From Streptomyces benahoarensis (lineage in GTDB: Bacteria; Actinomycetota; Actinomycetes; Streptomycetales; Streptomycetaceae): 53,470 bases of DNA. Position 1 is the first letter of the stretch. Every line of letters begins with the position of its first letter. Under the pieces are notes generated by a model, which had not been told where the DNA came from, ran no database searches, and was given only the letters and a program-made list of their open reading frames with translations. Where the stretch lies: the NCBI RefSeq assembly GCF_007280575.1, contig NZ_VKJP01000008.1, positions 1 to 53,470 on the forward strand. Direction: 5' to 3'. Below are positions 44,881-53,470 of the stretch, one piece after another. A program made the translations under genes and the position numbers.

Positions 44881-44978
44881 GACCAGCGGGGCCGCACGGC
44901 TGATCGTCCCTCTGTGGGCCGTGGTGTGCCAGGCCGCGACGGATCCATAAATCGAGACTGAGTGTCCGAACCTCGCAC

Positions 44979-45041
44979 ATGACCGATAAACTGGCCAGCG
45001 GATCGGGCCGAGCGCAGCTCTCGAGCCCCTCCAACAAATGA
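44979..45041 (+). other. Short upstream reading frame in the metK leader
   Basis: ATG 44979 opens a 20-codon frame ([20 protein letters not shown]) that stops at 45039-45041, 34 bases before the metK start. It has no good ribosome site, and a possible -10 (TAAACT, 44987-44992) lies within it, in which case its ATG would not be transcribed from that promoter. No recognised SAM riboswitch fold was found in the 247-base gap. Confidence 0.15.
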
Positions 45042-45075
45042 TCAGCCAGCAGCCGCTGCAACCCCAGGGAGCGAT

Positions 45076-46284: not shown

Positions 46285-46293
46285 GACCTCTCG

Positions 46294-46368
46294 TCCGGGG
46301 GCGTCGCGGACGCCCCCGGACGCCGAACGGCCCCGCACCGGATGTTCCCGGTGCGGGGCCGTTCGGCG
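46294..46368. terminator. Double perfect hairpin terminator between metK and the cluster
   Basis: Two abutting hairpins fill the convergent gap. The first has a 12-bp stem TCCGGGGGCGTC (46294-46305 with 46309-46320) and a 3-base loop. The second has a perfect 21-bp stem (46321-46341 with 46348-46368) and a 6-base loop. Both strands are served, so metK and the cluster are insulated from each other. Confidence 0.93.
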
Positions 46369-46381
46369 TCTGCGCCGCCTC

Positions 46382-47842
46382 TCAGGTCGCGGCGGCGACC
46401 AGCTCGTGTGCGATCAGCTCCGCCCGGACGTTGATCATGTACATGGAGCCGGCGTAGAAGAGGTCGCCGGAGGTGAGGTCGCCGAGCGCGTACAGCCGTC
46501 CCGGGACCTGTCCCCGGTCCGGGCGCAGCGCGTTCGTCGCCGGGTCGATCAGCAGCCCGCCGTGCGGATTGCCGACCACCAGACCCGCGTCCGCCAAGGA
46601 GCGCAGCAGCGGCGCGGACCGCGGGCCGGTGGTGGCCAGCCCGGTGCGGGTGGCGTCCACCACGACGTCGGCGCGTCCGGCCCGCCCCTCGTGCACCACC
46701 TCGAAGCCGCCGCCCGCCCGGGCCCGGACCCCGGCCGTTCCGGCGCGTACCGTCAGCTGGCCGCTGTCCATCGCCGCCAGCAGCCGCCGGGCGGTCGGCG
46801 GCGGCATCGGGTTGTACAGCGGTTTGGCGAGCGGGTGGAAGCGCCGCAGGAACACCCGCTTCTCGTGGTCGCCCCACGCCGTCCACACGCTCTCGCGGAC
46901 GTCGCGCAGCGCCGTCGTGGCGATCGTCTGGTACGGGTTGCCGTCCAGCCGGGCCAGTTCGGAGCGGAGCCGGTCGTGCGCCGGGCGGGGCGCGGTCTCG
47001 TCGGCCAGGTCCGTGCCCGCCGCGGCCAGTTCGGCCCCGAGCAGCGCGAAGGTGTCGCGCAGCCCGAGGGAGCCGGAGCGTTCCAGATGGCGGGCTATCG
47101 CCTCCGGCGTCAGATGCGTGAGGGTGAACGGGCGGTGCCGGGCGCGGACACCGGGCAGCAGACCGTGCCGCGACGTCATCGTGATCCGGCCGCGGTGCCC
47201 CCGGTGCAGCAACCCCAGCGCGACGTCCACCCCGGACAGCCCGGTGCCGAGGACCATGACGTGCGCGTCCTCGGCGATCCGGGGCAGTACCGCGGTGAGC
47301 GGATACGGATCGGGGTGGAAGCCGGGGGCACCGGCCAGCCCGTAGGGGTCGGCCGGTGGCCCGCTGCCCGGGCAGAGCACCACCCGGTCGGCGTGGGTGA
47401 GGGAGGCGGCGCCGCGGATCATGACCTCCCCGGCGGACGCCTTGGCGACGGTGGCGAACTCCGGGACCACCGTCACCGTCCAGCCCCGCCGCCGGGCGCC
47501 CTGCAGACACGCCTCCCAGTGGTCCACCAGATACTCGCCGTAGACCCGCCGCGGAACGTACGCGTCGGGCGGCAGGGTCCCCAACGGCGTTGCCGCGTAC
47601 CGGGGTTGGCGGTGCAGCCAGCGCAGGAAGTGATCGCGCTCGGCGCTCCGCACCGACATGAATCCGGCCTCGCGGTTGACCAGTGCGCAGTCCAGGTCGG
47701 GGCGGTAGGCGCGGCCGGTGGCCAGCTGCCGCGCCCCTTCGTGGACCGTGATGTCGAACGCGGCGTCGTTCCCGGCGTGGCGCAGCATGCTGTCGAGCAG
47801 GCTGACCGCCGCGGCGCCGCCGCCTATGACCGCCAGGCGCAT
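46382..47842 (-). CDS. FAD/NAD(P)-binding oxidoreductase
   Basis: The 486-residue protein has an N-terminal FAD-binding Rossmann motif (VIGGGAAAVSLL, about 5-16), a second dinucleotide motif (VLGTGLSGVDVALGL, about 195-209) and a C-terminal ALGDLTSGDLFYAGS typical of the FAD_NAD_binding (PF13454) group, distantly related to N-hydroxylases. It could be a flavin monooxygenase or oxidase; the substrate is unknown. AGGAGG precedes the ATG at 47842. It is the last gene of the cluster operon, 24 bases after the PPC gene, and ends 13 bases before the terminator on that strand. Confidence 0.82.
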   Translation of the reverse strand: MRLAVIGGGAAAVSLLDSMLRHAGNDAAFDITVHEGARQLATGRAYRPDLDCALVNREAGFMSVRSAERDHFLRWLHRQPRYAATPLGTLPPDAYVPRRVYGEYLVDHWEACLQGARRRGWTVTVVPEFATVAKASAGEVMIRGAASLTHADRVVLCPGSGPPADPYGLAGAPGFHPDPYPLTAVLPRIAEDAHVMVLGTGLSGVDVALGLLHRGHRGRITMTSRHGLLPGVRARHRPFTLTHLTPEAIARHLERSGSLGLRDTFALLGAELAAAGTDLADETAPRPAHDRLRSELARLDGNPYQTIATTALRDVRESVWTAWGDHEKRVFLRRFHPLAKPLYNPMPPPTARRLLAAMDSGQLTVRAGTAGVRARAGGGFEVVHEGRAGRADVVVDATRTGLATTGPRSAPLLRSLADAGLVVGNPHGGLLIDPATNALRPDRGQVPGRLYALGDLTSGDLFYAGSMYMINVRAELIAHELVAAAT

Positions 47843-47866
47843 GAGCGGGCTCCTCCTGGGGCCGTG

Positions 47867-48316
47867 CTATCCGGCCGTGTCGGGTGCGATGACGGGCAGG
47901 CCCAGCGTGGTGTCGAGCCGCCGGGTGAGCGCGGTGGGGTACGCGGTGACGAACACCTCCAGGGCCGGGTGGGCGACGGCCTGTTGGAGGTGGCCGCCGA
48001 CCGTCGTGCCGTCGCGGCGGCCCAGCACGACATGGGCGTGGACGTGCGGCCTCCCGTCCTTGAGCGCGATGTTGCCGGTCAGGCCCAGCACCTCGGTGTG
48101 TTCGGTCACCGGGATCGGGACATGGGCCTTGGCGACCGGGTCGAAGAGGGACAGCGCGGCGGAGCCGAAGGCGCCGATTCCGGTGAGGGAGCCCGCGGTC
48201 ACCTGCTGTTCGGCGGCGAACTTCTCCAGTGCGGGCACCACCTCGTCGCCCGCTTCCAGAACGACGGCGAACTGGCGGGGCGCCATGGCGTCGTCGTGCA
48301 GCAGCCGGATGTGCAT
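47867..48316 (-). CDS. PPC/DUF296 domain protein
   Basis: The 149-residue protein is a single PPC (DUF296) domain: GIGAFGSAALSLFDP, GNIALKDGRPHVHAHVVLG (His91, His93, His95) and the hallmark VGGHLQ (His109), followed by LEVFVTA. Bacterial members form trimers with a His cluster that may bind metal; plant relatives are fused to AT-hooks. Inside this operon an enzymatic or substrate-binding role seems as likely as DNA binding. The ATG at 48316 lies five bases after the EamA stop, with only a weak ribosome site, so it depends on coupled translation. Confidence 0.83.
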   Translation of the reverse strand: MHIRLLHDDAMAPRQFAVVLEAGDEVVPALEKFAAEQQVTAGSLTGIGAFGSAALSLFDPVAKAHVPIPVTEHTEVLGLTGNIALKDGRPHVHAHVVLGRRDGTTVGGHLQQAVAHPALEVFVTAYPTALTRRLDTTLGLPVIAPDTAG

Positions 48317-48321
48317 CGGTG

Positions 48322-49272
48322 TCAACTCGCTTTCGTGGCATCGGCGGGCTTCTCGCCGCCGGGGACTTCGCTCGGCACGGGCCCGGGGTGCCGCAGGGCC
48401 CACCGGGCGCGCACCTTGCCGATCACATCGAACTGGTTGAGGACCAGTCCGAGGATCACCAGTGTGATGGCCGTGGCCTTCATGACACCCAGGGGCTCAC
48501 CGAGGAGCAGCATCGACGACGCCATGCCGAAGATCGGCACCAGCAGCGTCAGCGGCGCGACCCGGGAGGTGCGGTAGGTGCGCAGCAGATGGCCCCAGAG
48601 CGCGAAGCCGAAGAGGATCGTCGGGTAGACCATGTAGAGCAGCGAGCCGAGGCCGGTCCAGCCCATGGTGGTGAAGGAGTGCTCGACGGTGCCCCAGCCG
48701 CCGAGGCCCAGCGACAGCAGGAACATCGGGACCGGCGGCACCAGGCTCGCCCAGACCGTGAACGCCAGCGCGTTCTCCGGCTGGGCCTTCTTGATGATCA
48801 GGTTGGCGACGGCCCAGGACAGCGACGCGCCGACGACCATGACCGTACCGGCCGCGGTGACCGAACCGTCGGTGACCGCGGCGACCAGACCCATGCCGAC
48901 GCCCGCCACCACGAACCCCACCAGGAAGCGGGGGCTGACGCGTTCGCCCATCAGCCCCGCCGCCAGGCCGATCGTCCAGAACGCCTGGAGCTGCATGACG
49001 ACCGAGGCCAGGCCCGCCGAGAAGCCCAGGTCCATCCCGGCGAAGAGCAGCCCGAACTGGCCGATGCCGAAGAACAGCCCGTACAGCAGGAGATAACGCC
49101 ACGGTACGTTCGGCCGCTTGAAGAAGAAGACCGCGGGGACGGCCGCGAGCAGGAAGCGGAGCGACGCCAGGAGGTAGGGGTCGAACGAGCGCAGCCCGAT
49201 GTCGATGATGGCGAAGTTCACTCCCCAGATGACCATCACCAGGACGGCACCCAGGAATTTGGACAGTGGCAA
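48322..49272 (-). CDS. EamA/DMT-family membrane transporter
   Basis: The 316-residue protein has ten predicted membrane helices in two EamA repeats (about 5-130 and 140-295) and a basic cytoplasmic tail. The TTG start at 49272 follows GAGGAG and gives LPLSKFLGAVLVMVIWG as the first helix; an upstream-longer frame is unsupported. EamA proteins of the drug/metabolite superfamily export small metabolites and amino-acid derivatives. In this operon it is the best candidate for product export and self-protection. Confidence 0.9.
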   Translation of the reverse strand: MPLSKFLGAVLVMVIWGVNFAIIDIGLRSFDPYLLASLRFLLAAVPAVFFFKRPNVPWRYLLLYGLFFGIGQFGLLFAGMDLGFSAGLASVVMQLQAFWTIGLAAGLMGERVSPRFLVGFVVAGVGMGLVAAVTDGSVTAAGTVMVVGASLSWAVANLIIKKAQPENALAFTVWASLVPPVPMFLLSLGLGGWGTVEHSFTTMGWTGLGSLLYMVYPTILFGFALWGHLLRTYRTSRVAPLTLLVPIFGMASSMLLLGEPLGVMKATAITLVILGLVLNQFDVIGKVRARWALRHPGPVPSEVPGGEKPADATKAS

Positions 49273-49285
49273 GAACGCTCCTCTT

Positions 49286-50044
49286 TCAGGGGTGTGAGGG
49301 GGCCGCGGGGGCGGCCGCGTCGGTGCGGATGACCTGGAACGCCTCGGCGAGGCGGCCGGGGGCGAGCCCGCCGAGGGCCGCCTGCCCGGCCAGCTTGGCG
49401 CGCACGTCCTCGCGGAGCCGGTCGCGGTGGGCGGTCTGCGAGACATGGGCGCGCAGCGCGGTGAGCTTCTGCTCGAACGTCTCCGACACATCGACGCGGG
49501 TGTCCGGGCGCGGCCCGGTCGTCACCCAGATCTCCGGGACGCTCCAGGGGGCCAGGCCCTCCTCCAGCAGCAGCTCGGGGAAGGCCCGCGGATTGCGCGC
49601 GTCCGGGTAGAGCGCCGCCAGCGACGCCTCCCCGGCCGCGCGGTGATCGGGGTGGAGATCGGGCAGGAACGCCCAGTTGATCTCCGGGCTCTGGATCACC
49701 GCGCGGTGCGGCCGGGTCTGCCGGATCACCCGGACGATCTGCCGCCGCAGCGCCACATCGGGCCGCAGCAGCCCGTCCTGGTGGCCGAGGAACCGTACGT
49801 CCTTGACCCCGAGGACGGCGGCGGCGTCGCGCTGCTCCCGCTCCCGCCGCGCCGCGAGATCGGCGCGCGGCACGGTCGGGTCCTCGCCGCCGCCCGAACC
49901 GTCCGTCAGGACCAGATACGTCACCTCGGCGCCCGCGCCCGTCCAGGACGCGATGGTGCCGCCGGCGGTGAAGTCCGTGTCGTCGGGGTGGGCGGCGACG
50001 GCCAGCACCCGCAGCGCGCCGTCCGGGGAATCCGTACCGCTCAC
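49286..50044 (-). CDS. PIG-L/LmbE-family zinc N-deacetylase or amidase
   Basis: The 252-residue protein has the zinc motif AHPDD (His19, Asp21 as likely base, Asp22) and the second ligand motif HPDH (131-134, His134 as ligand), plus LVLTDGSGGG. This family contains MshB, the mycothiol-conjugate amidase Mca and the lincomycin enzyme LmbE. The GTG at 50044 overlaps the methyltransferase stop (GTGA). With a mycothiol-fold enzyme in the same operon, an Mca/LmbE-like amide cleavage of a mycothiol conjugate is an attractive role, but removal of an N-acyl group from the product is equally allowed by sequence. Confidence 0.86.
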   Translation of the reverse strand: MSGTDSPDGALRVLAVAAHPDDTDFTAGGTIASWTGAGAEVTYLVLTDGSGGGEDPTVPRADLAARREREQRDAAAVLGVKDVRFLGHQDGLLRPDVALRRQIVRVIRQTRPHRAVIQSPEINWAFLPDLHPDHRAAGEASLAALYPDARNPRAFPELLLEEGLAPWSVPEIWVTTGPRPDTRVDVSETFEQKLTALRAHVSQTAHRDRLREDVRAKLAGQAALGGLAPGRLAEAFQVIRTDAAAPAAPSHP

Positions 50045-50892
50045 GCCGCGAGTACCTCGGCGGTGAAGAGGAACGACCGGGGCACGCCGGTCATGGTGCG
50101 GGGCGGCACCGGGTGCGGCCAGCGCCCGAAGTCGGCGCCGTCCTCGCCCGGTTGCTTGAGGTCCGTCACGGACCAGCCGCAGTCGGGCAGGAACTCCTCG
50201 GGGGAGTCGGTGCCGAAGAGCCAGGGGTTGCCGTCCTCGGCCAGGATCTTGAGGAAGCCGCGGGCGAGCGGGTTGGTGAGGGTGGTGCGGCTCGTCATGT
50301 CGCCGAGGAGCACGGAGCCGGGCGCGGACAGCTCCCGCAGCGTGCCCAGCAGCCGCCGTACGACGTCCTCGGGGAGGAAGAAGAACAGCCCCTCGGCCAC
50401 CCACAGGGTGGGCTGCTCCGGGTCGAACCCGGCGGCGTGCAGATCGTCCTGCCACTGCTCGGCGAGGTCGACCGCGACGGCGTGGCGGCGCGGCCCGCCG
50501 ACGGTGTCGACGCGGTGCCGGGCGAGAAGTTCGGCCTTGGCGTCGAGCAGCGCCGGGCGGTCGAGTTCGTAGAGCGTGACGCCGTCGGGCCAGGTCAGCC
50601 GGGCGGCGCGCATGTCCATCCCGGCGGCGACGGAGACCACCTGACGCAGCCCGCGGTCGCGGACGGCGCGGACGAGGGCGTCGTCGAGGTAGCGGGTGCG
50701 GACCAGGACGAAGGGGGCGACGGCGGAGCCGCGGTACCGCTCCAGCAGCGCGAAGCCGGTGTCCCCGGCGACGGCGCGGGCCAGCGGGTCGTCGAAGATA
50801 CGGTCCGGGCGCTCGGACTCCAGGGCGCGCGCGGCGGCCGTCCACTGTGCCGTCCGGGACACCGGCTCCATCTGCATTTCCGCGCTCGTCAT
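50041..50892 (-). CDS. SAM-dependent methyltransferase, LCMT/TIGR00027 type
   Basis: The 283-residue protein matches the leucine-carboxyl-methyltransferase-like family: RIFDDPLARA near the start, RTRYLDDAL, the SAM motif VSVAAGMDMRAARL (about 86-99), YELDRP and VAEGLFFFLPEDVV. Bacterial members mostly methylate carboxylates or hydroxyls of small molecules; sulfur methylation cannot be excluded. The ATG at 50892 follows GAGAGGAG; in-frame ATGs six and eight codons in are alternatives. It overlaps the PIG-L gene by four bases. The SAM supplier metK lies in the convergent gene. Confidence 0.87.
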   Translation of the reverse strand: MTSAEMQMEPVSRTAQWTAAARALESERPDRIFDDPLARAVAGDTGFALLERYRGSAVAPFVLVRTRYLDDALVRAVRDRGLRQVVSVAAGMDMRAARLTWPDGVTLYELDRPALLDAKAELLARHRVDTVGGPRRHAVAVDLAEQWQDDLHAAGFDPEQPTLWVAEGLFFFLPEDVVRRLLGTLRELSAPGSVLLGDMTSRTTLTNPLARGFLKILAEDGNPWLFGTDSPEEFLPDCGWSVTDLKQPGEDGADFGRWPHPVPPRTMTGVPRSFLFTAEVLAA

Positions 50893-50959
50893 GAGCGGTT
50901 ACTCCTCTCGGGGCGACGGCTGACCGGCGCGGGGTGTCCGCCGGTGCCGGAGGTCCGGT

Positions 50960-51421
50960 TCATGTGTCCTGCCCGGCGGGTCTGCGGCGGAAGATGCTGT
51001 GCAGCACCATGCTGAAGACCACCGTGCCCTCCTCGTCGAGGAGTTCGCACCGCGGGCGCAGTATTCCGGATTGCTTGCTGTGCAGTACGGGAGCCACGCC
51101 CAGCACCGTCAGGCGCGCCCGCAGCACATCGCCGGGGCGCACCGGCCGGTGGAAGCGCATCTCGTCCACGCCCGGTGAGCCGTCACCGGCCGAGTCGGCG
51201 AGGATCTCCTCGACGTAGCGGCGCATGAAGAGCGAGGCGGTCAGCCAGCCGCTGGCGACGAGACCGCCGAAGTGCGACTCGCGGGCGCGCTCGGGGTCGG
51301 TGTGGAACACCTGCGGGTCATAGGCGCGCCCGAAGGACAGCACCTCTTCCTGTGTCACCTTCACCTCGCCGAGGTCGTAGACCTCACCGACGGGAAAGTC
51401 CTCCAAGTACCGGATGCTCAC
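50960..51421 (-). CDS. MaoC-family (R)-hydratase-like hot-dog protein
   Basis: The 153-residue protein is a single hot-dog MaoC domain with the catalytic Asp35 and His40 in GRAYDPQVFHTD, and the following GGLVASGWLTASLF. Such enzymes add water to, or remove it from, 2-enoyl thioesters on CoA or a carrier protein. In this cluster the natural substrate would be the thioester on the adjacent carrier protein. The GTG at 51421 follows GAGG and lies seven bases after the previous stop. Confidence 0.88.
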   Translation of the reverse strand: MSIRYLEDFPVGEVYDLGEVKVTQEEVLSFGRAYDPQVFHTDPERARESHFGGLVASGWLTASLFMRRYVEEILADSAGDGSPGVDEMRFHRPVRPGDVLRARLTVLGVAPVLHSKQSGILRPRCELLDEEGTVVFSMVLHSIFRRRPAGQDT

Positions 51422-51428
51422 GGCCGCC

Positions 51429-52076
51429 TCACCATTCCGCGCTGACGAGTTCTTCGGGCGTGGCGCTGGACAGCTGGTAGCGGTCCGGAGCCACCGGGCG
51501 CCCGGTGTAGAGCCGCAGCACGTCCGGGACGTCCGCGGTCAGCCGGGCCGTGGGCCGTCCGGGCAGGGCGGAGCCCAGGGTGAGCCGCCGGGTGGGCAGC
51601 TGGATCTCCACCAGGGGGGTGCGCACCACGCGTTCACAGCGGCTGAGCAGCGTGAGGGCCGCCTGGTGGCCACGGCTGTGGTACGGATCGTCCAGGCCGA
51701 TCGCCTCGCGGACATCGCCGCCGTGGATCCAGGTGCCGAGCGCCGCCAGGTCCTTGGCGCCGCCCGCCGCCCGGATCGCCGGGCCCGCGTCCGCGAGGCC
51801 CTGGTCGAACTCGTCGATGACCTGCTTGAGCGGCCAGGAGCGGCGCTCCTCGACGTCCCGTTGGTTCTGCTCGTGGCTGGCGCGGTACGCGGGGCCCGCG
51901 GCGAGGCCGGTGAGTGCGGCGCCGCAGTGCGCGACGATGTCGCGGACCGTCCAGGCGGAGCAGACCGTGGGCCGCTTCAGATCGGCCTCGGGCAGGGTGC
52001 GCAACCGCGGCACGAGGGTGTCGCGTTCGGCGCGGAGCACCACATCGGTGGCGGCGGGTATCTGCGGGCCCGTCAT
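51429..52076 (-). CDS. Maleylpyruvate-isomerase-family (DinB-fold) mycothiol-type enzyme
   Basis: The 215-residue protein has the four-helix MDMPI_N/DinB fold with the usual signatures: CSAWTVRDIVAHCG (His50), TWIHGGDVREAIG (His118, Asp121), and a C-terminal domain (about 150-210). The three-residue metal site resembles mycothiol-dependent maleylpyruvate isomerase. Family members use mycothiol as cofactor or substrate; LmbV of lincomycin has the same fold. The ATG at 52076 overlaps the carrier-protein stop (ATGA), so the two are translated together, which hints that this enzyme works on the carrier-bound intermediate. The exact reaction is unknown. Confidence 0.84.
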   Translation of the reverse strand: MTGPQIPAATDVVLRAERDTLVPRLRTLPEADLKRPTVCSAWTVRDIVAHCGAALTGLAAGPAYRASHEQNQRDVEERRSWPLKQVIDEFDQGLADAGPAIRAAGGAKDLAALGTWIHGGDVREAIGLDDPYHSRGHQAALTLLSRCERVVRTPLVEIQLPTRRLTLGSALPGRPTARLTADVPDVLRLYTGRPVAPDRYQLSSATPEELVSAEW

Positions 52077-52315
52077 CGCACCCCCGCCCCGAAGTAGCGC
52101 GCCTCGATGCGGCGCAGGGTGCGGAAGTCGTCGATGTCGATGCTCTCCATGTCGATGTCCTCACCGCTGAGGCGGGAGACCAGCACCATGAACTCGACGA
52201 ACGCGAGGGAGTCGATCAGACGGCTCTCCAGCAGGTCGAAGTCCGGCTCGATGTCGCTGACTTCGGCGTGCCGGTCGAGGATCCACTGTTTGATCTGGTC
52301 GGTGGCGGACTGCAT
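52073..52315 (-). CDS. Free-standing acyl/aminoacyl carrier protein
   Basis: The 80-residue acidic protein has the phosphopantetheine site LIDSLAFVEF (Ser36) and four-helix carrier-protein layout. AAGGAG precedes the ATG at 52315. It lies 71 bases after an aaRS-like amino acid:carrier-protein ligase and overlaps the mycothiol-type gene. The combination ligase plus small carrier is the arrangement described for bacterial amino acid:[carrier protein] ligases, so this carrier most likely holds an amino acid. A phosphopantetheinyl transferase is not seen in the window. Confidence 0.9.
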   Translation of the reverse strand: MQSATDQIKQWILDRHAEVSDIEPDFDLLESRLIDSLAFVEFMVLVSRLSGEDIDMESIDIDDFRTLRRIEARYFGAGVR

Positions 52316-52386
52316 GGCGGACTCCTTCGAGAGGGTGGGGCGGGGAGGTACGGGCAGACGCGGCGGGCGGGTGCCCGCGCGGCGGA

Positions 52387-53208
52387 TCAGGCCACGGCGG
52401 CCTTGTCGAGGGCCGTGGCGACGGCCGCCCAGTCGCCGTGCCGCTCGTGCAGCACGGCGAGCCAGCGCTCCAGGCCGAAGGCGACACAGCTGGTGAACAC
52501 CGGGCGGCCGGTGCCGGCGATGCGGATGTCGCAGCGCTCGCCGAAGAAGTTGCGGTGCTTGTTCACGGACCCGATGGCGAGGTCGCCGACGAGGAACTCG
52601 TACTTCACCGGCGACAGCATCTGGAGCTTGGCGCGCGGACCCTCGCCGTCGAAGAACGGGTCGGACGCGGGCTCCTTGCGCATCTCCAGGCCCAGCGCCT
52701 CGGCGAACGCGAGGATGCGCTGCGAGGAGCGTTCCAGATGGTCCTCGACGAACTCCTGGCTGCCCAGCGCGACGATCTCGCGCATATGGAAGCCGAGCAG
52801 GCGGCGCAGCCCCTTGTAGTGCTCCTCGCGGCGGAAGCACCGTCCGACGAGGGTGACCAGGGTGTCCCGCTCCAGCGCCGTGCCCTCCAGGCCGAGGTAG
52901 ACGGCGTAGCAGGTGGCGGGCGGCGGGGCGACCTCGGCGCCTTGGAGCTGGTCGGGCGGGAAGGCGGTGGTCGCCGTCGCCGCCTCGCCCTGCGGGCGCC
53001 GCTCCAGGTCCAGGCCGCTGACGGTCAGCGCCTGGTGCGGGAAGTTCTGGTAGTAGTCGAGCTTGGCCAGACCGGCGACGGGGAGCAGGGCCGGTCCGAC
53101 GACGGGCTCGGCGCCGCGGGCGGTGCCCCATTCGGCGAAGGTGCGGTCCAGGCGGTGGAGCGCGGCGGCTTCGTCGGCGCGCAGGAACAGCAGACCGTTG
53201 GGTTCCAC
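52387..53208 (-). CDS. Class II aaRS-like amino acid:[carrier protein] ligase
   Basis: The 273-residue protein resembles the truncated seryl-tRNA-synthetase homologues that load amino acids onto carrier proteins rather than tRNA. Visible features: motif 2 FRREEH (Arg126, Glu128), motif 3 GLERW (Glu247, Arg248) and three likely zinc ligands Cys100, Glu144 and Cys241, spaced much as in the known glycine- and alanine-specific ligases. It lacks an N-terminal tRNA-binding arm. The GTG at 53208 follows GGGAGG. It precedes the carrier-protein gene. The amino acid cannot be told from sequence alone; small ones (Gly, Ala) are known for the family. Confidence 0.86.
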   Translation of the reverse strand: MEPNGLLFLRADEAAALHRLDRTFAEWGTARGAEPVVGPALLPVAGLAKLDYYQNFPHQALTVSGLDLERRPQGEAATATTAFPPDQLQGAEVAPPPATCYAVYLGLEGTALERDTLVTLVGRCFRREEHYKGLRRLLGFHMREIVALGSQEFVEDHLERSSQRILAFAEALGLEMRKEPASDPFFDGEGPRAKLQMLSPVKYEFLVGDLAIGSVNKHRNFFGERCDIRIAGTGRPVFTSCVAFGLERWLAVLHERHGDWAAVATALDKAAVA

Positions 53209-53227
53209 GAATCGGCCTCCCGCCCGC

Positions 53228-53470
53228 TCAGATGCCGGGCAGGACGTCGTCGGCGAAGATGCCGGTCCGGCACATGAACGCCAGCGGCTTGCGCACGGCG
53301 CGGCGCTCGGCCTCCCGGCGCGAGGGCTCGGCGAGCAGCCGTTCCCGGAATCCGAGCGGGTCGGGAATGCCGGCGTCGCGGTAGATCTGCGGGTTGTAGA
53401 AGGCCCGCAGGCTGAAGGCGATGTACCGCTTGAGGTACTGCTCGATCTCCTCGCGCTGCCCGGGGGTGAG
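53228..53470 (-). CDS. Unrecognised partial gene at the right edge (C-terminal 80 residues)
   Basis: A frame open to the window edge ends at TGA (53228-53230) and encodes LTPGQREEIEQYLKRYIAFS near the edge, through FYNPQIYRDAGIPDPLGF, to a GIFADDVLPGI C-terminus. It is 19 bases from the ligase gene on the same strand, so it belongs to the same operon. The segment is mostly helical and charged. I do not recognise the family; the N-terminal part lies outside the window. Confidence 0.6.
   Translation of the reverse strand, partial: LTPGQREEIEQYLKRYIAFSLRAFYNPQIYRDAGIPDPLGFRERLLAEPSRREAERRAVRKPLAFMCRTGIFADDVLPGI

Follow-up and report, generated by a model that had tools for sequence, protein, structure and literature searches.

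Ten minus-strand genes at the right end (53470..46382) of a contig from Streptomyces benahoarensis form a real, self-contained operon, which we read, with a probability of roughly 55%, as an operon for a nitronate-type metabolite with a mycothiol arm. The contig, 53,470 bases long, was analysed in its entirety and is called the window here; its end cuts the first gene of the operon, and this assembly offers no sequence beyond it. The original prediction, an earlier account made from the letters of the window, had seen a biosynthetic operon built around an aminoacyl-tRNA synthetase (aaRS)-like amino acid:carrier-protein ligase and had listed the cut gene as a partial one. The ligase keeps its place, but the operon is centred on a ligase-oxygenase pair and not on the ligase alone: judged by its relatives, the partial gene is the overlooked C-terminus of an AurF-type diiron N-oxygenase, an enzyme that would define the chemistry of the operon.

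Complete copies of the operon were located by scanning public genomes with the window ligase as query. In Streptomyces catenulae NRRL B-2342 (locus L034), whose ligase is 96% identical to that of the window, the operon is whole and encodes, in order, the AurF-type protein (299 aa), the ligase, a carrier protein, a protein of the mycothiol-dependent maleylpyruvate isomerase (MDMPI) type, a MaoC protein, a methyltransferase, a PIG-L hydrolase, an EamA exporter, a PPC protein and a flavin adenine dinucleotide (FAD) enzyme. All ten genes stand in this one order, never more than 88 bases apart, in five other loci: L034, L035 (S. rhizoryzae), L036 (Streptantibioticus rubrisoli), L044 (Streptomyces sp. 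MspMP-M5) and L050, the last four with protein identities of 63-84%. Since the flanks of these four are unlike each other and unlike those of the window, the conserved block begins and ends with the ten genes. In S. catenulae metK and priA flank the operon, which has the opposite orientation there, and the metK side is the same in the window. Among 11 other coaBC-metK loci of the genus, priA follows metK directly in seven and about 1 kb on in one; the other three, of which one ends at a contig end, showed no priA. As priA thus usually adjoins metK, the operon looks inserted between the two. Nine of the genes are complete in the window; their ratio of nonsynonymous to synonymous substitution rates (dN/dS) against S. 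catenulae is 0 to 0.26.

Within the window, successive gaps measure 19, 71, -4, 7, 67, -4, 13, 5 and 24 bases, in agreement with the predicted maximum of 71; the "several" 4-base overlaps once claimed do exist, but number two, between the carrier and MDMPI-type genes and between the methyltransferase and PIG-L genes. The families originally named were confirmed by Pfam and NCBIfam matches. The lack of a nonribosomal peptide synthetase (NRPS) or polyketide synthase (PKS) holds for the complete operon as seen in S. catenulae: a domain search found no A, C, KS or AT domain in the ten operon proteins, the AurF-type protein being represented by the S. catenulae copy. The original prediction had also named a finding that would count against it, that the neighbours are unconserved; the neighbourhood search with the ligase as query found the opposite, and with gene order kept in five other loci the view that the genes form a biosynthetic operon, conserved and with an aminoacyl carrier system of its own, stands.

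The AurF-type gene (53228..53470, minus strand) is present in the window as a 3' end of 80 aa truncated by the contig end, and its complete relative lies at L034:9081-9980. Alone, this fragment gives a weak AurF match (E 0.1); it shares 98% identity with residues 220-299 of the S. catenulae protein, which itself matches PF11583 at 6.7e-34. Rows for the active-site alignments came from loci L034-L079 without L057, with L093-L112 left out. Across the 38 AurF rows E120, H123, E167, H194, E198 and H201 are invariant (the window's 80 residues come after these ligands), and the spacing E167-H194-E198-H201 fits E198-H225-E229-H232 of Dob3 (PMC12154687). There, H225 of Dob3 is described as characteristic of N-oxygenases, and the diiron N-oxygenases of the family are said to yield nitroso, nitro, nitronate, azoxy and diazo products. 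At E <= 1e-25, AurF relatives occur in three of 396 genomes sampled across the phylum, all of the same genus and one of them the window's own.

The ligase gene (52387..53208, minus strand; 273 aa, GTG start) matches PF00587 (1.4e-8), the NCBIfam amino acid--ACP ligase family (1e-31, below cut-off) and the solved amino acid:carrier-protein ligase PDB 3mey (2.7e-24); against NF005479 it scores 110 bits, below the cut-off of 357. Residues C100, E144 and C241, identified by eye in the alignment with 3mey, are kept in 45 of 45 rows and are presumably zinc ligands. The adjoining carrier gene (52073..52315, minus strand) encodes 80 aa with a DSL serine motif; its PF00550 match (0.0039) is below cut-off, and all 38 rows keep the serine. 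The Bradyrhizobium amino acid:[carrier protein] ligases (3mey, 4h2s) belong to the same sequence family, with the Cys/Glu/Cys aligned and a paired carrier protein. The Bradyrhizobium ligase is longer, 346 aa against 273, and the neighbours given for that family in a note added in proof (PMC2922099) are an oxidoreductase, an uncharacterised protein, a glycosidase and liposaccharide genes, not AurF. Of 392 genomes sampled in the genus, 115 (the window's included) have a relative of the window ligase at E <= 1e-15, and linkage to AurF is not universal. Loci L037 and L038 carry ligase and carrier without AurF, beside genes resembling KASIII, of which one in L038 was confirmed by Pfam; L038 also has a DAO-family FAD enzyme near its AurF-less ligase. 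The ligase thus seems to have a further use in these two loci.

The published precedent for such a set of enzymes is a glycine-nitronate cassette, in which a diiron oxygenase converts carrier-bound glycine to a nitronate that is then either O-methylated or denitrified (PMC9967187, citing He & Ryan 2021). The expected trace of this bifurcation is a split between methyltransferase and nitronate monooxygenase (NMO) neighbours, and such a split is observed. We tabulated 65 loci, 11 of them named and 54 picked by hand down the ranked ligase matches, with no pair of ligase genes more than 97.5% identical in DNA. L057 was left out as a duplicate of L035, flank pieces L080-L092 did not count as loci, and the short pieces L005-L033 also stayed uncounted, AurF lying beside the ligase in 27 of these 29. 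AurF adjoins the ligase in 56 of the 65 loci and does not in the other nine. Among the 56, a TIGR00027 methyltransferase lies within 6 kb in 35, an NMO within 3 kb in ten (L053, L093-L096, L099, L100, L102, L106 and L107), and both in none; given a hand-picked sample, the 35 : 10 : 11 split between methyltransferase, NMO and neither is not a frequency estimate. The NMO of L053 matches PF03060 at 1e-34, and the others were called by match to the L053 protein.

The methyltransferase of the window (50041..50892, minus strand; 283 aa) is a predicted nitronate O-methyltransferase of the S-adenosylmethionine (SAM)-dependent TIGR00027/LCM family, with 210 bits against TIGR00027, above cut-off. Six other cassette methyltransferases are 51-74% identical to it, compared with 33-41% for four non-cassette copies in the same six genomes. 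The 35 methyltransferase loci comprise five ten-gene operons (type A), 16 SAM-cycle clusters (type B), three reduced type B clusters and 11 loci without an MDMPI-type gene. Type B, recurrent in Streptomyces (L045-L048, L051 and L060-L070), has AurF, ligase, carrier, MaoC, methyltransferase and MDMPI-type genes in common with the window operon and adds metK, a PfkB-type kinase, metH, ahcY, a Cys/Met pyridoxal phosphate (PLP) enzyme, a second methyltransferase, AcpS and MFS; the reduced form is similar but has neither metK nor ahcY. Within 8 kb of the ligase in the 16 SAM-cycle clusters (of the 65 loci) no relative of the EamA, PPC or FAD protein was found, and across the whole table this tail is confined to type A.

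The mutual exclusivity of methyltransferase and NMO, together with the published glycine-nitronate route, is what points to a nitronate. The ligase would adenylate glycine or another small amino acid and load it onto the holo carrier protein, as its family and conserved site suggest; the AurF-type enzyme would oxidise the carrier-bound amine to a nitronate, giving nitroacetyl-carrier if the substrate is glycine; and the TIGR00027 methyltransferase would O-methylate this nitronate. We regard these three steps, loading, N-oxidation and O-methylation, as probable. At a guess, MaoC might then hydrate or eliminate on the carrier-bound product. More tentatively, the MDMPI-type protein may join an electrophile to mycothiol and the PIG-L protein may cut the adduct at its glucosamine amide down to an N-acetylcysteine conjugate, in a sulfur-insertion step or for protection. 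EamA, going by its family, would export the product, and the FAD and PPC proteins could serve in tailoring or regulation. A single modified amino acid would be the likeliest type of product, in keeping with the small modified amino acid originally foreseen.

The core of ligase, oxygenase, carrier and methyltransferase is found repeatedly in Streptomyces; it resembles the described glycine-nitronate route and is thus of a known kind. The cassettes of enteromycin carboxamide and akazaoxime/A-76356, compared by description, share the carrier-bound amino acid, the diiron oxygenase and the nitronate O-methyltransferase; for akazaoxime/A-76356, genome and labelling data predict that the latter two act on glycine (PMC9967187). 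Denitrification is the alternative fate, which the NMO neighbours would mirror here. Akazaoxime has been assigned an NRPS, whereas the window operon uses a class II aaRS-like ligase and a free carrier; compared with both cassettes it has no NRPS or PKS and has extra MDMPI-type, PIG-L, MaoC, EamA, PPC and FAD genes. Neither lipothrenin (PMC10616846) nor any of the class I aaRS systems (PMC2922099) was accepted as a match, the gene sets described for them being different. No published match for the whole ten-gene set was among the matches listed, in a search that left out most subscription literature and so is no proof of absence. The earlier statement that no such pathway is described therefore holds for the ten-gene set within the literature searched, and not for the core cassette. 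Apparently new, as far as searched, are the stand-alone ten-gene set, the tie between the cassette and mycothiol-type enzymes (24 loci) and the EamA/PPC/FAD tail.

A mycothiol arm, whether biosynthetic or protective, is plausible, and we give an arm of any kind an even chance. Its first candidate component is the MDMPI-type gene (51429..52076, minus strand), which encodes a two-domain MDMPI/DinB protein of 215 aa, of the mycothiol-dependent isomerase / S-transferase type, matching MDMPI_N at 1.6e-9. This gene is present in 24 surveyed loci, and methyltransferase and MaoC accompany it in all 24. The predicted structure, with a predicted local distance difference test score (pLDDT) of 89.9, finds the mycothiol-dependent maleylpyruvate isomerase 2nsf with Foldseek (1.3e-5) and aligns with it over 194 residues (root-mean-square deviation 4.7) at a Z of 11.1, modest for a mostly helical protein by the fold-comparison tool's own note. 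The DinB-only chains 5cof (Z 11.3) and 6anr, the colibactin resistance protein ClbS (Z 11.1), tie with it but cover only residues 5-130 (125 residues), so that the assignment draws on whole-length coverage and on the Pfam and NCBIfam matches. A comparison of the protein with PDB sequences gave no match, and a profile gave one at chance level. Set against the His52/Glu144/His148 metal triad of the family, two His residues are invariant (24 of 24), the correspondence being judged by spacing.

The second component would be the PIG-L gene (49286..50044, minus strand; 252 aa), a predicted mycothiol-conjugate amidase whose family match is 3.8e-27 and whose AHPDD and HxDH motifs are invariant in 12 of 12 rows. 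Its best solved match is LnmX (2.4e-33), followed by diacetylchitobiose deacetylases; LnmX (PDB 5bmo) belongs to the biosynthesis of leinamycin, the product of a hybrid NRPS-PKS, which the window operon lacks. Against the mycothiol-conjugate amidase Mca (TIGR03446) the operon protein scores 53 bits and does not reach the cut-off of 277, and bacillithiol deacetylases score above Mca. By these scores the operon hydrolase is a PIG-L protein and not Mca proper; the host's own Mca is encoded elsewhere (502 bits), and the host MshC is above cut-off. The closest known parallel to the pair is found in lincomycin biosynthesis, where LmbV and LmbE, a DinB-type protein and a PIG-L-type amidase with a relation to mycothiol metabolism, occur with a carrier protein as in the window operon (PMC4351081). 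In the part of that source at hand, no AurF or aaRS-like ligase is described for the lincomycin cluster, and LmbV retains a His/Glu/His zinc site whereas the type A MDMPI-type protein is without the Glu. Beside the ligase-AurF cluster of L049, an MshC paralog (L049:2355-3617; 385 bits against a TIGR03447 cut-off of 485) might be a second mycothiol-type ligase.

The remaining genes add less to the argument. The MaoC-type hot-dog hydratase/dehydratase (50960..51421, minus strand; 153 aa) matches its family at 2.2e-17 and keeps, in 27 of 27 rows, the Asp and His that we take to be the hydratase motif. The predicted EamA exporter (48322..49272, minus strand; 316 aa, TTG start) has a family match of 1.8e-24 and its best NCBIfam score with an O-acetylserine/cysteine exporter, below that model's cut-off. 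The PPC/PCC (DUF296) domain protein (47867..48316, minus strand; 149 aa) matches at 1e-27. The last gene (46382..47842, minus strand; 486 aa) encodes an FAD/NAD(P)-binding oxidoreductase (NAD_binding_9, 3.8e-30), whose sequence matches are weak ones to reductases and whose AlphaFold model is poor (pLDDT 50). Apart from the three type A genomes, 49 of 384 genomes sampled from the genus carry relatives of the FAD protein (33-42% identity), and in the nine that were inspected, with 1.5 kb on each side, no other operon gene was found.

A number of observations weigh against a nitronate operon with a mycothiol arm. On the side of the nitronate, the exclusivity of methyltransferase and NMO (Fisher p 1e-5) was calculated with shared ancestry ignored and with NMO sought by a single query protein, and 11 of the 56 ligase-AurF loci have neither gene; in L108 and L111 a contig end cuts the locus within 400 bases of the ligase, in the other nine it does not. 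For the AurF-type protein the first Glu ligand could be E78 (38 of 38 rows) or E92 (37 of 38), and in the PDB sequence set a single AurF protein found no AurF-family chain, while a six-sequence profile gave one chance-level match. No enzyme for carrier release or amide formation is evident in the operon. That glycine is the substrate is presumed from the Bradyrhizobium enzyme and from the published cassette. On the side of the arm, the position corresponding by spacing to Glu144 of MDMPI and LmbV, four residues before the second His, is Gly in all 24 proteins, and the residue three before that His is Glu in 19 of 19 others and Thr in five of five type A proteins; this leaves room for a different metal site and makes thiol-transferase activity uncertain. 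PIG-L is present in five of five type A and three of three reduced type B clusters, yet in five of 16 full type B clusters, and it is missing from 11 of 12 extended flanks. A lincomycin lmbE mutant kept trace production, for which its authors favour partial replacement by another host gene (PMC4351081). With this precedent and a host Mca encoded elsewhere, the absence of PIG-L is not fatal to the mycothiol idea, yet it weakens it.

Among the alternatives, it is possible, though we lean against it, that the nitronate core is right and the MDMPI-type and PIG-L proteins serve self-protection, trapping the reactive nitronate, or a compound arising from it, as a mercapturic acid to be exported, so that the product would be sulfur-free. 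Mycothiol conjugates, once cleaved, are exported, and the best EamA score is with a cysteine-type exporter (under cut-off). The DinB fold is shared with ClbS (Z 11.1, residues 5-130), and 11 of the 16 SAM-cycle clusters are without a nearby PIG-L gene. Mycothiol is described as the main Streptomyces route for removing toxic compounds (PMC10616846), and an amidase cleaves its conjugates (PMC4351081). However, 11 of the 35 methyltransferase cassettes lack the arm (eight without MaoC, three with it), and as arm-free cassettes are so common, O-methyl nitronates alone do not seem to require it; moreover, the MDMPI-type gene always accompanies MaoC (24 of 24).

We find it doubtful that the operon works on another substrate (alanine, serine or a non-protein amino acid), or that the AurF-type enzyme stops at a hydroxylamine or oxime, so that an O-methyl oxime results. 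The varied products of diiron N-oxygenases (PMC12154687) and the aldoxime of akazaoxime, which PMC9967187 ascribes to the action of a diiron oxygenase on glycine, would allow for this, but the NMO beside AurF and ligase in ten of 56 loci points to a nitronate in that branch. It is unlikely that the MDMPI-type protein works on the carrier-bound product as a thiol-dependent isomerase or thiol-independent hydrolase and that PIG-L is an ordinary deacetylase, mycothiol being no building block. The sole near-full-length fold match is indeed an isomerase, one metal ligand is unlike that of MDMPI and LmbV, and PIG-L scores bacillithiol deacetylases over Mca; yet the pairing of a DinB/MDMPI-type protein with PIG-L mirrors LmbV and LmbE (PMC4351081).

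Going beyond a nitronate operon with a mycothiol arm, one may think of a bacterial pathway that parallels the plant glucosinolate core, with mycothiol in the place of glutathione, a proposal from gene content alone that we hold to be quite improbable. The O-methyl nitronate would lose methanol, perhaps with the help of MaoC, to form a nitrile-oxide-like electrophile; mycothiol would trap it, and PIG-L would trim the adduct to a cysteine conjugate, exported in type A. In SAM-cycle clusters the Cys/Met-type PLP enzyme might cleave the conjugate to a thiohydroximate, which would then be methylated. Literature searched with glucosinolate- and thiohydroximate-type terms did not mention mycothiol among the matches listed. 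That the ten genes are chance neighbours sharing no pathway is scarcely credible, since five other loci, four of which have unrelated flanks, retain the gene order, and the genes are under purifying selection.

The analysis gives an orphan operon, and the wider Streptomyces ligase family, a concrete and testable chemistry, and with a small set of soluble proteins in vitro reconstitution is realistic. Cluster finders that rely on core domains could miss such loci where NRPS and PKS are absent. Should the mycothiol arm prove biosynthetic, nitronate chemistry by enzymes would be tied to thiol transfer, a means for bacteria to form C-S bonds next to oxidised nitrogen.

Other routes and products were considered for the surveyed loci. 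A copper-binding product was set aside: copper-type genes lie near two clusters, L049 and L060, and five copper-type queries matched no other of the 46 loci L034-L079, so that their presence appears incidental. Partner genes for azoxy or hydrazone routes were not noticed, and Dob-type clusters, as far as described in the available source, use a MetRS/cupin fusion. In L053, large PKS-like genes stand on both sides (judged by eye). The AurF-ligase-methyltransferase cassette of L075 lies beside genes that, judged by eye from sequence starts, resemble those of aminochorismate synthase, FAD halogenase and 5-aminolevulinate-synthase-type enzymes. L150 and L151 carry metK and a PfkB-type kinase, L150 also metH, with no ligase or AurF in the pieces of about 4 kb covered. 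At the distal end of the window operon, two consecutive strong hairpins (46290..46382, minus strand; z -9.2) are a likely terminator between the operon and the convergent metK. Directly upstream of metK lies an Rfam Streptomyces-metK RNA (RF03063, 99.2 bits; 44952-45071, plus strand), and L034 has one too.

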